Origin: Bacteroidales bacterium
Lineage (GTDB): Bacteria; Bacteroidota; Bacteroidia; Bacteroidales; PUMT01
Reading direction: 5' to 3'
Assembly: GCA_007132225.1 (NCBI GenBank)
Contig: SLPB01000019.1
Coordinates: forward strand, 1-56,696
DNA length: 56,696 bases
Part shown: piece by piece, positions 752 to 39,013 of the stretch
Layout of the letters: each line of letters begins with the position of its first letter
How positions within the stretch are numbered: the first letter of the stretch is position 1
Notes under the pieces: generated by a model
The model's input: the letters and a program-made list of their open reading frames with translations, nothing else
The model's database searches: none
Told to the model about the DNA's origin: nothing
Translations under genes and position numbers: made by a program

Positions 752-1843
752 ATGGATGAAAAAATAAGGAGTCGCAGAAAATTTTGCAGAGAAATTACTT
801 CCCTTTCTCTGGTTGGAATATTGCCAGTGCCAGTTTTACATGCATGCTTTTCCGGGGAATCTGAAAATCCCGGAAACCAATTAATGACCGATATGTCAAA
901 AGCTGACCAAAAGAAAAATAATTTTTTTGAACCGGGTTATTTAAGGCTTCACCGCACCGGGGAACTTCGTGCACGTGCCGATGTTTTGTGGGAAATGATG
1001 AATGTTTGCAGATTATGTCCGCGTAAATGTGGAAGTGACAGGATCAGCGGACAGAAAGGGGCCTATTGCAAGGCAACTTCCCAGCTCAGGGTTTCTTCAT
1101 ATAATCCTCATTTTGGTGAAGAAAAGCCCCTGGTGGGAACCAATGGTTCGGGAACTGTTTTTTTCACGCATTGCGGACTGCTTTGCGTGTTCTGTATTAA
1201 CTGGGAGGTTAGTCAGGGAGGAATGGGTAAGGACACCGGCATTAAGCAGCTAAGCGATATGATGCTCAGGCTCCAAAAAATGGGGTGTCACAATATTAAT
1301 GTTGTTTCTCCGAGCCATTACTCGCCGCATATACTGCTTGCGCTCGATAGAGCTGCATCAGAAGGGTTAAGGTTACCGCTTGTTTATAATACAAGTGGTT
1401 TTGAAAGGCTTGAAATACTTAAAATTCTGGATGGAATTGTCGATATTTATTTGTCAGATTTTAAATATTTTGATTCAGAAATGTCTGCTAAATATTCACC
1501 CGGGGCTGAGACTTATCCTGAAGTGACCAAAAAAGCACTTATTGAGATGAACCGGCAGGTTGGAATTGCTGATCCCAAAGCAAACAGCGGCATATTGCAA
1601 AGGGGCCTGATTATCAGGCATCTTGTAATGCCCAACAATGTAGGTAATACTGATCAATTATTGGAATGGATTGCCGGCAATCTTCCCAGGAATACATATG
1701 TGAACCTTATGTCACAGTACACACCTGTTTTCAGGGCTGATGAGTATCCGGAAATAAACCGCAGGATTACGGTAAAAGAATACAGAAACGCTATAAAATC
1801 TGCAATAGGTGCCGGCCTCACCAATCTTGATATCCAGGGATAG
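752..1843 (+). CDS. PflX-like radical SAM protein with Tat-like lipoprotein signal
   Basis: The 363-residue product carries a radical SAM cluster motif C141-x3-C145-x2-C148, preceded by a second cysteine set C86-x2-C89-x3-C93-x12-C106. Phrases such as GSGTVFFTHCGLLC and NPHFGEEKPLVG match the PflX/COG1313 branch of pyruvate-formate-lyase-activase-like radical SAM proteins, whose substrate is generally unknown. Unusually, the N-terminus has SRRKFCR (residues 7-13), a twin-arginine-like motif, then a hydrophobic stretch ending in LHAC (29-32), a possible lipobox. This predicts export of a folded Fe-S protein and anchoring to a membrane. The ATG at 752 is required to include the signal. No partner gene is obvious: the next gene, a GNAT, starts 138 bp downstream. 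The family call is firm; the export prediction is inference. Confidence 0.85.
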   Translation: MDEKIRSRRKFCREITSLSLVGILPVPVLHACFSGESENPGNQLMTDMSKADQKKNNFFEPGYLRLHRTGELRARADVLWEMMNVCRLCPRKCGSDRISGQKGAYCKATSQLRVSSYNPHFGEEKPLVGTNGSGTVFFTHCGLLCVFCINWEVSQGGMGKDTGIKQLSDMMLRLQKMGCHNINVVSPSHYSPHILLALDRAASEGLRLPLVYNTSGFERLEILKILDGIVDIYLSDFKYFDSEMSAKYSPGAETYPEVTKKALIEMNRQVGIADPKANSGILQRGLIIRHLVMPNNVGNTDQLLEWIAGNLPRNTYVNLMSQYTPVFRADEYPEINRRITVKEYRNAIKSAIGAGLTNLDIQG

Positions 1844-1981: not shown

Positions 1982-2434
1982 ATGACCCTAATAAGAAGGG
2001 CATCCCCTGATGATAGCATGATTATTTCCGGTTTTCAGAAAAAACTGGCATATGAAACAGAAAATATAAGTCTTGATCCCTGCACTGTTGAAAAAGGCGT
2101 TAGAGCTGTATTTTCTGATCCTGCCAAAGGTTGTTATTATATTGCTGAAATCGGAGATATAATTGCTGGATCCCTGCTCACAACCGATGAATGGAGTGAC
2201 TGGAGAAACGGACATATAATCTGGATCCAGTCTGTGTATGTATTGCCACTTTACAGAAATAAAGGTGTATTCAGGCGTTTATATTCACATATTAAGCAAA
2301 TTGTTGTGAATAATCCTGATTATATGGGTATACGTTTATATGTTGATAAAACTAACAGAACAGCCCTTGAAGTGTACAGACAAATCGGAATGAATGATGA
2401 ACATTACCAGATGTTTGAATGGATAAGTTCTTAA
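1982..2434 (+). CDS. GNAT family N-acetyltransferase
   Basis: The 150-residue protein has the GNAT fold pattern. It starts with the typical strand 'IRRASPDDSMIISGF'. The acetyl-CoA region is 'SVYVLPLYRNKGVFRRLYSHI' (about residues 84-104), where R/Q-x-x-G-x-G/A is represented by RNKGVF. The C-terminal part 'LYVDKTNRTALEVYRQIGM' contains the conserved N-x-x-A-x-x-x-Y/F-x-x-x-G-F/M signature. It probably acetylates a small molecule or an amino group in the cytoplasm; the substrate cannot be read from sequence. The glycosyltransferase starts 42 bp downstream on the same strand, so the two are probably co-transcribed. Confidence 0.85.
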   Translation: MTLIRRASPDDSMIISGFQKKLAYETENISLDPCTVEKGVRAVFSDPAKGCYYIAEIGDIIAGSLLTTDEWSDWRNGHIIWIQSVYVLPLYRNKGVFRRLYSHIKQIVVNNPDYMGIRLYVDKTNRTALEVYRQIGMNDEHYQMFEWISS

Positions 2435-2476
2435 TTGTATAACAGGTATTTTTAAATAATATTTTTTTACGGTACT

Positions 2477-3601
2477 ATGCAGGTGTGTTGGGTTATAGCA
2501 TTAAGCTTGGTATTCCTGTATTATGCATGGATCGGTTATTTTTATTACGGGTGGTTAAAAATTCCTTCTGATTTGCCTGGGCCTTTAAAAAACAGGAGAT
2601 ATGTTTCTATTATTGTTCCCGTTAGAAATGAAGAGAACAATATTGTATCACTGATCAAGTGTCTTACAACACTTGATTATCCAAAAAATTTTTTGGAAAT
2701 AATAATTATTGACGATCATTCAACTGATCATACTTACGATATCATAAAAGATTTCACTAAACTCAATGGGAACATCCGTTATTTCAAACTTGATAACAGT
2801 GAAACCGGAAAGAAATCAGCCATCAGAAAAGGCGTAACAGTCTCGCGGTTTCCTTTAATTCTGACAACTGATGCAGATTGCAAACCATCCCCATTATGGG
2901 TTAAAACCATGGTCAATTATTTTGAAACAAACTCCGTGGATCTTATAGCCGGTCCTGTGATAATGGAAGGAGACGGGGGGTTTTTTAACAGTTTTCAGCA
3001 GCTGGAATTTTTTAGTCTTCTGGGCTCAACAGCAGGTGCTATTTCTGTTGGCAATCCGGTGATGTGCAGTTCAGCAAATCTTGGATTCAAAAGAGATGCT
3101 TATCTTGAAAACAGTGACCCGGCATTAAAAAAGGTCACTTCAGGAGATGATGTATTTCTTTTATTTTCCGTACATAAAAATACAAATAGAAGCATCGGGT
3201 TTTTAAAATCCCGGGATGCATGTGTAATAACAAATGTGCAAAATAATCCTGATGATTTTATAAAGCAAAGACAAAGATGGGCATCAAAAAGTATTCATTA
3301 TACAACAAAAGCTTCAGTTTTTACCGCTTTGCTGGTTTTCACAATACATTTTTATGCAATTATCTGTTTATTAATTAGTTTGATCCTGCCCCAATTTTTA
3401 ATGATTGCAGTATTTATTTTCATTTTTAAATCATTTATTGATTTTCCATTTTTGTACAGTGTTGCAAGTTATTACGGGAAGAGGGGCTTAATGAAATATT
3501 TCCCCGCAATACAAGGGGCTTATTTTTTTTACATTGCCTATATTGCAATAACTTCAATTACCTGTGCTGTTAACTGGAAAGGACGAATTGTCAAATATTA
3601 A
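2477..3601 (+). CDS. Membrane-associated family 2 glycosyltransferase
   Basis: The 374-residue protein has an N-terminal membrane segment (about residues 4-20), then a GT-A domain starting 'YVSIIVPVRNEENNI'. It shows the DDHS motif (nucleotide binding), TTDADCKP (metal-binding DxD-type) and GDDVFLLF (catalytic acid region). The QRQRW motif near residue 264 is the Q-x-x-R-W signature of processive or polyprenyl-type GT2 enzymes. Two or three hydrophobic helices follow at the C-terminus. It probably transfers a sugar from a nucleotide donor to a lipid or polysaccharide acceptor at the inner membrane. It follows the GNAT gene by 42 bp, so a sugar-modification pair is plausible but unproven. Confidence 0.85.
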   Translation: MQVCWVIALSLVFLYYAWIGYFYYGWLKIPSDLPGPLKNRRYVSIIVPVRNEENNIVSLIKCLTTLDYPKNFLEIIIIDDHSTDHTYDIIKDFTKLNGNIRYFKLDNSETGKKSAIRKGVTVSRFPLILTTDADCKPSPLWVKTMVNYFETNSVDLIAGPVIMEGDGGFFNSFQQLEFFSLLGSTAGAISVGNPVMCSSANLGFKRDAYLENSDPALKKVTSGDDVFLLFSVHKNTNRSIGFLKSRDACVITNVQNNPDDFIKQRQRWASKSIHYTTKASVFTALLVFTIHFYAIICLLISLILPQFLMIAVFIFIFKSFIDFPFLYSVASYYGKRGLMKYFPAIQGAYFFYIAYIAITSITCAVNWKGRIVKY

Positions 3602-5158: not shown

Positions 5159-6556
5159 ATGAAACATTTTATTGTCTACAGTACCAAATTGATCCTCATC
5201 TTATTGTTTATGAATGCATGTTCAGAAAGAGAACCGGCTCAGTTTACCGGCGAGCTTAATGAAGTTAAACTCATTACACTTAACCCCGGTCATTTTCATG
5301 CTTATCTTGTTCAGAAAGATATGTATCATCAGGTTGATCCCCGGGTGCATATTTATGCTCCCGCAGGCCCTGAACTTGAAAATCACATCTCAATAATTGA
5401 GAACTACAACACTCGCGGGGAGGATCCCACTTCCTGGGATCTTGAAGTTTATGCCGGCGATGATTATCTTGAAAGGATGCTTGAAGAAAAAAAGGGTAAT
5501 GTTGTTGTTCTTGCCGGCAATAACCAGCGTAAAACAACTTACATTAAGCATTCCGTTGACGCCGGTCTGAATGTGCTTTCTGATAAGCCAATGGCCATCA
5601 ACACCGGTAATTTTCAACTGCTAAAGGATGCATTTGAATCTGCTGAAAAGAACAATGTTCTTTTGTATGACATAATGACTGAGAGATATGAGATAACCAG
5701 CATACTTCAAAAGGAGATTATGCAGATGCCATTGATTTTTGGTCAGCTTGAAAAAGGTAGTCCGGATGATCCTGCTGTTATCAAGGAGAGTGTCCATTAT
5801 CTTTTTAAATATGTATCCGGACAGGTACTTCGCCGCCCACCCTGGTATTTTGATGTAACCCAGCAGGGAGAAGGTATAGTTGATGTTACCACCCACCTTG
5901 TTGATCTTGTTCAGTGGGCCAGTTTCCCGGAAAAGATAATTGATTATGAACGGGATATTGAAATGATCTCCGCCAGAAGATGGCCGACTGCCGTTACCAG
6001 GAGTCAGTTTGAAAGCATTACCAGGGTGCCGGAATTTCCCGATTATTTGCAACCCTATATTGAAAATGATACTGTATTGCAGGTTTATTGCAATGGAGAA
6101 ATGAATTACAGCCTTAATGGCGTTCATTCACGGGTAATTGTTAAATGGGATTACCGTGCCCCGGAAGGTACCGGCGATACGCATTATTCTTTTACCAGGG
6201 GCAGCAAGGCCAATCTTATTATCAGGCAGGGCCAGGAACAGAATTTCAAACCTGTCCTTTATATAGAACCCTCAGATAATGATAATTTGGATGAATTTGA
6301 AAAAGTGCTTTTGAGTGAATTTACCAAAATCTCAGAAAAGTTTCCCGGGGTAGAACTAAAGAAGCTGGATAATATATGGGAAGTTGTGGTACCTGAGGTT
6401 TATGATGTGGGACATGAAGCGCATTTTGCACAGGTTACTGAAAAATATCTTCGGTTTCTGGTTGACGGGAAATTGCCGGACTGGGAGGTGCCAAATATGA
6501 TAGCTAAATATTATACGACCACAAGGGCCCTCGAAATGGCCATGGAGTCTGAATAA
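5159..6556 (+). CDS. Lipoprotein Gfo/Idh/MocA-type oxidoreductase
   Basis: The 465-residue protein begins with a lipoprotein signal ending in NAC (cysteine at residue 21). It then has a Gfo/Idh/MocA layout: Rossmann-like N-terminus, 'VLSDKPMAI' at the position of the usual EKP motif, and the C-terminal domain found in Bacteroidetes 'putative oxidoreductase' lipoproteins (GEGIVDVTTHLVDLVQW). The usual G-x-G-x-x-G nucleotide loop is replaced by LNPGHFHA, so cofactor binding may be altered or lost. The predicted location is the periplasmic face or outer membrane. It lies 133 bp after the DUF6807 gene, in the same direction, and a strong hairpin follows. Substrate is unknown; carbohydrate is likely from family and context. 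Confidence 0.8.
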   Translation: MKHFIVYSTKLILILLFMNACSEREPAQFTGELNEVKLITLNPGHFHAYLVQKDMYHQVDPRVHIYAPAGPELENHISIIENYNTRGEDPTSWDLEVYAGDDYLERMLEEKKGNVVVLAGNNQRKTTYIKHSVDAGLNVLSDKPMAINTGNFQLLKDAFESAEKNNVLLYDIMTERYEITSILQKEIMQMPLIFGQLEKGSPDDPAVIKESVHYLFKYVSGQVLRRPPWYFDVTQQGEGIVDVTTHLVDLVQWASFPEKIIDYERDIEMISARRWPTAVTRSQFESITRVPEFPDYLQPYIENDTVLQVYCNGEMNYSLNGVHSRVIVKWDYRAPEGTGDTHYSFTRGSKANLIIRQGQEQNFKPVLYIEPSDNDNLDEFEKVLLSEFTKISEKFPGVELKKLDNIWEVVVPEVYDVGHEAHFAQVTEKYLRFLVDGKLPDWEVPNMIAKYYTTTRALEMAMESE

Positions 6557-38191: not shown

Positions 38192-39013
38192 TTAGTCATT
38201 TTGTTTTGCTTGCATTTCTTGTTGTCTGATAATTCGCCTTGACAACCTAATGCCGATTTCATAAAGAAACATTAGCGGAAAGGCAACAAGTATCTGGCTG
38301 AAAACATCAGGAGGTGTAATAATGGCAGAGAGTGCCAAAATAATCACCAGGGAATGTCTCCTGTATTTTTTAAGGAATTCAGGTGTTACCAGTCCAATTT
38401 TCGTAAGAAAAAATATAAGCACGGGCAGCTCAAATATGAGTCCTGCTGCCAGGGCTATGGCACTAACGGTCTGAATGTATGACATCAGGTTTATCTGATT
38501 TGTAACCTCCGCGCTTACCTGGTAGCTGCCAAGAAAATGGACAGACAGCGGAATTATGACAAAGTAGGCAAAGAGAACTCCCATTATAAATAGCATGGAA
38601 ATATAAAAAACAGCACCACGTGCATAGTTTTGTTCCTCATCGTAAAGCGCAGGCCCGATGAAACGCCATAATTCAAAAACAAGGTATGGGAATGACAGGA
38701 TCAGTCCGATGATCATGGAGACCATAATATGCGTTGTAAACTGACCGGCCATATTTATGTTGATCAGTTGAAAGGGCTCTATGTTTATGCAGAGGGCCTG
38801 GATGCCAATCCACGTGCCAAATGAGCAGAGCATGCGGTTGGTGAAAAACTCGGGTGTTTTGGGTGCAATTATAATGTTGGTGAATATGAATTCTTTGAAC
38901 ACAAAGGCCACTATTGCGAACACCACAATAGACATAATCGATCTCACCAGGTGCCACCTTAAGTCTTCCAGATGTTCAAGGAATGACATTTCGTTGTTAG
39001 TTTTTGCTGCCAC
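38192..39013 (-). CDS. tatC: Sec-independent translocase protein TatC
   Basis: The 273-residue protein has six predicted membrane segments and the conserved 'MSFLEHLEDLRWHL' and 'FELWRFIGPALYDEE' of TatC. It forms the receptor for twin-arginine signal peptides. The start is GTG at 39013: on the minus strand AAGGAGA lies six bases upstream, an unusually good Shine-Dalgarno site for this phylum. The internal ATG at 38989 (MSFLEHLEDL) lacks one. TatA is not in the window. Two products of this window carry Tat-type signals (genes at 752 and 45316). Confidence 0.95.
   Translation of the reverse strand: MAAKTNNEMSFLEHLEDLRWHLVRSIMSIVVFAIVAFVFKEFIFTNIIIAPKTPEFFTNRMLCSFGTWIGIQALCINIEPFQLININMAGQFTTHIMVSMIIGLILSFPYLVFELWRFIGPALYDEEQNYARGAVFYISMLFIMGVLFAYFVIIPLSVHFLGSYQVSAEVTNQINLMSYIQTVSAIALAAGLIFELPVLIFFLTKIGLVTPEFLKKYRRHSLVIILALSAIITPPDVFSQILVAFPLMFLYEIGIRLSRRIIRQQEMQAKQND

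Follow-up and report, generated by a model that had tools for sequence, protein, structure and literature searches.

Introduction

Radical SAM enzymes are held to be cytoplasmic, as SAM and low-potential electrons are found there. Pyruvate formate-lyase (PFL) activating enzyme (PDB 3cb8), the closest described system by fold, presumably has neither an export signal nor a four-cysteine N-terminal set, and the D-x-K motif is taken here as the SAM-site motif of PFL-activase-type enzymes. The family name PflX/COG1313, adopted from the sequence-only reading of this DNA and from general knowledge, presumably stands for uncharacterised radical SAM proteins. A literature search on radical SAM proteins with Tat signal, lipobox or signal peptide, on COG1313/PflX and on AmmeMemoRadiSam revealed no exported family; most subscription papers lay outside its scope, and novelty is not proven by it. 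Chorismate synthase and ClpX are usually cytoplasmic proteins. A radical SAM domain protein was reported among the proteins in the culture supernatant of Rhizobium etli, together with chorismate synthase and, in another growth phase, ClpX (PMC2964644); its occurrence beside these usually cytoplasmic proteins is read as leakage.

The window, i.e. the whole stretch of 56,696 nucleotides that was analysed, encodes at positions 752-1843 a radical SAM protein for which export and a lipid anchor had been proposed from the sequence alone. We estimate a probability of roughly 70 % that this protein is a member of an old exported PflX/COG1313-like clade and acts as a SAM-dependent radical enzyme outside the cytoplasm; export, taken alone, is highly probable. 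The basis is comparative: the export signals of the clade, Sec-type signals in genomes devoid of Tat genes, intact SAM-site residues and the fold. How SAM and electrons could be provided outside the cell is the puzzle raised in the sequence-only reading; it is a real one, and this gap is what makes an exported clade interesting.

Gene and protein layout

The gene (752-1843, forward strand, as are all features of the protein) starts with ATG and codes for 363 amino acids, a predicted exported radical SAM protein (PF04055 just below the cut-off, fold match 3cb8). The N-terminus, MDEKIRSRRKFCREITSLSLVGILPVPVLHACFSGES, presents in the translation a twin-arginine motif SRRKFC (residues 7-12, positions 770-787), followed by the hydrophobic region of the signal (h-region, residues 15-29, 794-838; best 12-residue hydropathy 2.32), a lipobox-like LHAC with Cys32 (residues 29-32, 836-847) and a tether (residues 33-56, 848-919). 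The tether is mostly disordered in the AlphaFold model (mean pLDDT 88.2), with pLDDT below 50 at residues 34-46 and 51-56, and a confident fold begins at about residues 57-61; the layout is thus read as signal, tether and enzyme. The enzyme part carries a four-cysteine motif, C86-x2-C89-P-R-x-C93...C106 (1007-1069), as possible second metal site, the radical SAM motif C-x3-C-x2-C in the form CGLLCVFC (residues 141-148 with C141, C145 and C148; 1172-1195) and a D-x-K motif (D236, K238; 1457-1465). All elements pointed out beforehand, SRRKFC, LHAC, C-x3-C-x2-C and the C86-C106 set, were found in the reading frame. The host genome comprises 3.3 Mb on 181 contigs and is 95.94 % complete; a search with the protein at E<=0.001 matched solely the protein itself.

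Export signals in the relatives

The rows compared were the best 80 of 109 relatives' loci, ranked by similarity to the window. The window's order contributed 29 loci and 20 stretches, and the phylum to which a Desulfobacterales genome belongs contributed 30 loci and 17 stretches with paralogues. For the first 130 rows, starts were picked by rule and signals scored by motif plus hydropathy; the remaining rows were judged by eye. Starts were set by hand for L010, L013, L063, L065 and L078. The class Tat-type takes in some KR or RK starts (L016, L064, L085, L078), L078 (SRKEFL) being assigned to Tat. A hydropathy of 3.68 led to the reassignment of L036 from Tat to Sec; all other Sec-type rows were assigned by eye. 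L021 was scored as unclear and the similar L171 as without signal; the latter score was also given to L124, the hydrophobic start of which is short (1.6). L086 and L158 extend beyond the ends of their contigs. At L021:1-230, an in-frame hydrophobic N-terminal stretch lacks a usual start codon upstream, either an odd start or a broken signal.

A strict test, RRx[FLIVMW] plus h-region, was applied to 93 N-termini (the window, the best 80 of 109 loci and 12 from the window's order). Seventy-four were positive, whereas 1000 residue shuffles of these N-termini yielded 1.0 positives on average and never more than 6; the Tat-type signals of this close set exceed chance. Among 36 outside rows there was no positive; most of these have a much shorter N-terminus. 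Tat h-regions are expected to be less hydrophobic than Sec h-regions. The observed hydropathy had a median of 1.77 (range 1.01-2.5) for Tat-type and values of 2.34-3.98 for the nine Sec-type rows, with a small overlap; the window protein is near the top of the Tat-type range. The NCBIfam Tat model TIGR01409 did not match the window protein at E<=1 or E<=10. Run against the full-length sequences of 81 members at E<=1, it recognised 8; against 81 N-termini at E<=10, it recognised 19.

Phylogeny and distribution

For the trees, sequences were cut to begin at the first cysteine of the four-cysteine motif, and so exclude the signal. L126, devoid of an anchor motif, was left out of both trees; the second also omitted L137 and L142, which duplicate L049 and L075. 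In the tree of 174 rows, the window protein fell into a clade of 113 rows with an SH-aLRT support of 94, just under the starred level; the first tree, with 129 rows, placed 93 of them in this clade, at a support of 97. Signals of either type occur in 108 of the 113 rows: 99 are Tat-type and 9 Sec-type, three lack a signal (L072, L090, L094) and two are unclear (L021, L086). Among the 61 rows outside the clade, drawn from one order and one phylum, 60 were scored as without signal and one is truncated (L158). On this tree, export versus none requires four changes, and Tat, Sec and none eight. One old gain of export with rare losses is the simplest reading, if a root among the signal-less rows is assumed.

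The export claim is strongly supported by these comparisons, since most homologues in the clade bear their own in-frame Tat-type or Sec-type signal. For the same reason the objection of an internal start fails for the clade: homologues starting internally without a signal, which had been named beforehand as indication of a cytoplasmic protein, amount to the three signal-less rows. The genomes of these three possess TatC. The clade spans many phyla in the sequence comparison, and the window protein is not a one-off. In the window's order, 124 of 295 genomes matched at E<=1e-10, not all matches being placed on the tree, the main unplaced ones at <=205 bits; 13 genomes hold a row of the clade, ten with signal, and the remaining three are the truncated L086 and the signal-less L090 and L094. 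Short extra matches at G007:C41:55944-56351 and C56:116315-116584, one with stops, may be copy remains; the main copy there is the signal-less L090. Relatives below 60 % identity were located on plasmids in eight records.

Translocation route

The window itself contains TatC (38192-39013, reverse strand; PF00902, 219.5 bits), and three TatA-type genes are on other contigs of the same genome. TatC was sought in 39 genomes (29 positive) and TatA in 23 of the genomes searched (15 positive). Draft gaps became apparent: the genomes of L001 and L026 have TatC and no TatA match, those of L019, L037, L021 and L065 have TatA and no TatC match. TatC alone is misleading, as the latter four show, and a test on two genes was used. 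Both genes were missing in six of 23 genomes (L015, L017, L018, L036, L052, L091); each of these has a Sec-type start, and a lipobox was scored in five of them. Absence of both genes thus concerned 6 of 9 Sec-type versus 0 of 13 Tat-type genomes (Fisher p 0.0011), the 13 having been selected among 26 Tat-type genomes, 24 of them with TatC; with L036 kept as Tat, the ratio was 5 of 8 versus 1 of 14 (p 0.011). TatC alone gave p 0.00017 with L036 as Sec and 0.0012 with L036 as Tat. This correlation is not independent of descent, with four phylogenetic pairs, two of them on starred branches, too few for a sign test. Among the Sec-type rows, the genomes of L051 and L092 have both Tat genes and that of L065 TatA only. 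Since the six genomes lacking both Tat genes all present a Sec-type signal, export seems to persist through a change of route; the direction of the correlation is as expected if export itself were selected.

Fold and SAM site

The best PDB fold match of the predicted model was PFL activase with SAM and peptide, 3cb8 (Z 19.4, rmsd 3.0, 224 aligned residues, 13 % identity), followed by NifB and viperins. The model thus predicts a radical SAM barrel, with C-x3-C-x2-C present. PF04055 scored 27.3 bits for the window protein, just below the cut-off of 29.5, and matched 81 of 81 members at E<=1 (best 3.6e-13). A PDB search by sequence found no match for the window protein, and the family profile reached PFL activase at E 0.4. 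Scores for the glycyl radical enzyme activase models TIGR02494 (12.5 versus a cut-off of 174.35 bits) and TIGR04395 (14 versus 360) and for TIGR04337, the AmmeMemoRadiSam radical SAM model (16.1 versus 220), were far below the cut-offs, so the protein was filed in neither group; TIGR04337 had no match in the window's genome at E<=0.001.

Seventeen residues were present in 100 % of 88 exported, 7 sister and 29 further signal-less rows: C86, C89, C93, C106, H120, E123, E124, C141, C145, C148, N150, D236, K238, R289, P294, M320 and Q322. Ile149, a glutamine in 36 signal-less rows, and Trp306 are typical of the exported rows. The extra cysteine set at 86-106, proposed earlier as a sign of a second cluster, does exist and may bind a second metal centre, but it is not special to this protein: occurrence in all 36 signal-less rows makes it a feature of the whole family. 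The invariance of the site residues in exported and signal-less rows indicates that the site has been kept after export, and SAM radical chemistry outside the cytoplasm by the exported protein is likely. Alternatively, the exported protein might use its Fe-S centres outside for non-SAM work, as redox sensor, electron carrier or structural element, the SAM site being a relic. We know of no SAM pool outside the cytoplasm, which favours such a role, and a literature search on SAM in the periplasm yielded work on mitochondrial carriers only. The SAM-site residues are, however, equally invariant in exported and signal-less rows, and we consider a non-SAM function unlikely.

Probable membrane anchor and orientation

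In LHAC the cysteine follows the h-region and histidine occupies position -2, which is atypical for a lipobox. A lipobox is located at this place in 8 of the 11 nearest rows (window, L001-L009, L083) and absent there in L007, L008 and L009; L001-L006 and L083, seven of the ten nearest relatives, have LAAC, LSAC, MAAC or FAAC. A lipobox-like cysteine was scored in 42 of 93 rows, that of L007 at a doubtful place and the by-eye cases L016, L078 and L091 not being included. Eight Sec-type rows look like lipoproteins. The lipid anchor proposed earlier is plausible for the window protein, but its generality is not borne out: an anchor is likely here and is not a defining family trait.

These signals also bear on a second alternative, in which the N-terminus is a cytoplasm-facing anchor or the protein acts in the cytoplasm before export, the outside being end point rather than workplace. 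SAM and reductant do sit in the cytoplasm, and some Tat substrates wait on the inner side for their cofactors. Against this stand the arginines ahead of the h-region, which according to the positive-inside rule orient the remainder of the protein outward, the lipobox-like cysteines together with the lipoprotein-like Sec-type rows, and signal-less paralogues in the same genomes: 17 genomes, chosen for two matches, all pair a first copy that starts Tat-type with a second copy scored as devoid of signal, L171 being doubtful. We regard a cytoplasmic workplace as improbable, at about one chance in ten. Translation from an internal ATG, e.g., Met45 or Met48, into a plain cytoplasmic protein would agree with the in-frame ATGs at these residues and with the three signal-less clade rows, but is very improbable, since 99 of 113 clade rows have a Tat-type signal in frame and since the start is Sec-type, and not lost, in the six genomes without TatA and TatC.

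Genomic neighbourhood

The next genes downstream code for a GNAT-type acetyltransferase (1982-2434, forward strand; PF00583) and a family 2 glycosyltransferase (2477-3601, forward strand; PF00535). Each belongs to a sequence cluster in nine loci including the window; clustering of neighbours revealed these two only in the window's own lineage, plus smaller sets. The pair at 1982-3601 behind the radical SAM gene may form an envelope-modification cluster. A conserved operon partner was sought among 66 same-strand near neighbours, selected out of the 152 ORFs that neighbour the best 80 of 109 loci, and rejected, no Pfam family occurring in more than 4 of the 66. As no partner is kept across phyla in this set, the function is not readable from the neighbours. 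Elsewhere in the window, at 5159-6556, a Gfo/Idh/MocA-type oxidoreductase (PF16490, PF01408) has by eye a lipoprotein-like start (..FMNAC); an enzyme type expected inside looks exported.

A second exported subclade consists of 13 loci of Desulfobacterota (L144-L152, L154, L156, L157, L160). An AmmeMemoRadiSam radical SAM gene adjoins the exported copy in nine of these; the other four had none within about 1.5 kb or less per side. Six of the nine neighbours were identified by hmmscan with TIGR04337 (356-377 bits versus 220), those of L146, L149 and L160 by genome search. The six have Tat-like starts, RR or KR (L145:1-1173, L150:5-1057, L151:2864-3955, L154:2599-3747, L156:165-1334, L157:254-1444). 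All eight neighbour starts that were read are Tat-like, four RR and four KR; the ninth, beside L146, is outside this count. Among the best-scoring 30 TIGR04337 loci of the phylum, 14 have a Tat-like start by eye; the 30 include L191 and L199, which run off contigs, and L198, the start of which was read from its neighbour. TIGR04337 matched in 139 of 148 genomes of the phylum at E<=1e-40; co-occurrence therefore says little, adjacency and a shared Tat-like start say more.

Discussion

An exported, SAM-dependent radical enzyme is the reading we prefer. The protein would fold and take up its iron-sulfur cluster or clusters in the cytoplasm, presumably before export, and the folded protein would pass the Tat translocon outward. 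A lipid or signal anchor and a flexible tether may keep it in the envelope or on the outer face of the cytoplasmic membrane. There, a barrel similar to that of PFL activase would perform SAM-dependent radical catalysis, perhaps on a polypeptide or another envelope component. The adjoining second radical SAM family with Tat-like starts counts for this explanation. The Sec-type members count against it: in their case cluster acquisition would have to take place outside, which is difficult to imagine.

Whether many phyla run SAM-dependent radical chemistry outside the cytoplasm by means of at least two exported families, this clade and the AmmeMemoRadiSam type of Desulfobacterota, is an evenly balanced question. 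Judged from names and habitats, the carriers appear to be mostly anaerobes with two membranes. If true, two exported radical SAM families imply that the envelope is supplied with SAM and low-potential electrons. For the clade itself, export signal and intact SAM site would mean either that such a supply exists beyond the membrane or that the radical SAM fold has found a new use. The clade offers testable candidates, with natural Tat/Sec swaps and signal-less paralogues of the same genome as controls.

Compared with known systems, the protein resembles the PflX/COG1313 group in the whole domain, with C-x2-C-P-R-x-C...C, C-x3-C-x2-C and D-x-K, and is 30-56 % identical to signal-less relatives; it differs by the export signal and tether and by Ile149 and Trp306 on the exported side. 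It shares with AmmeMemoRadiSam enzymes (TIGR04337) a similar N-terminal cysteine set, by eye, and with those of Desulfobacterota a possible Tat-like start, but is far below the model's cut-off, and its genome has no TIGR04337 match at E<=0.001. PFL activating enzyme is the best fold match (Z 19.4), whereas the identity is 13 % and the protein scores below the cut-off of every activase model.
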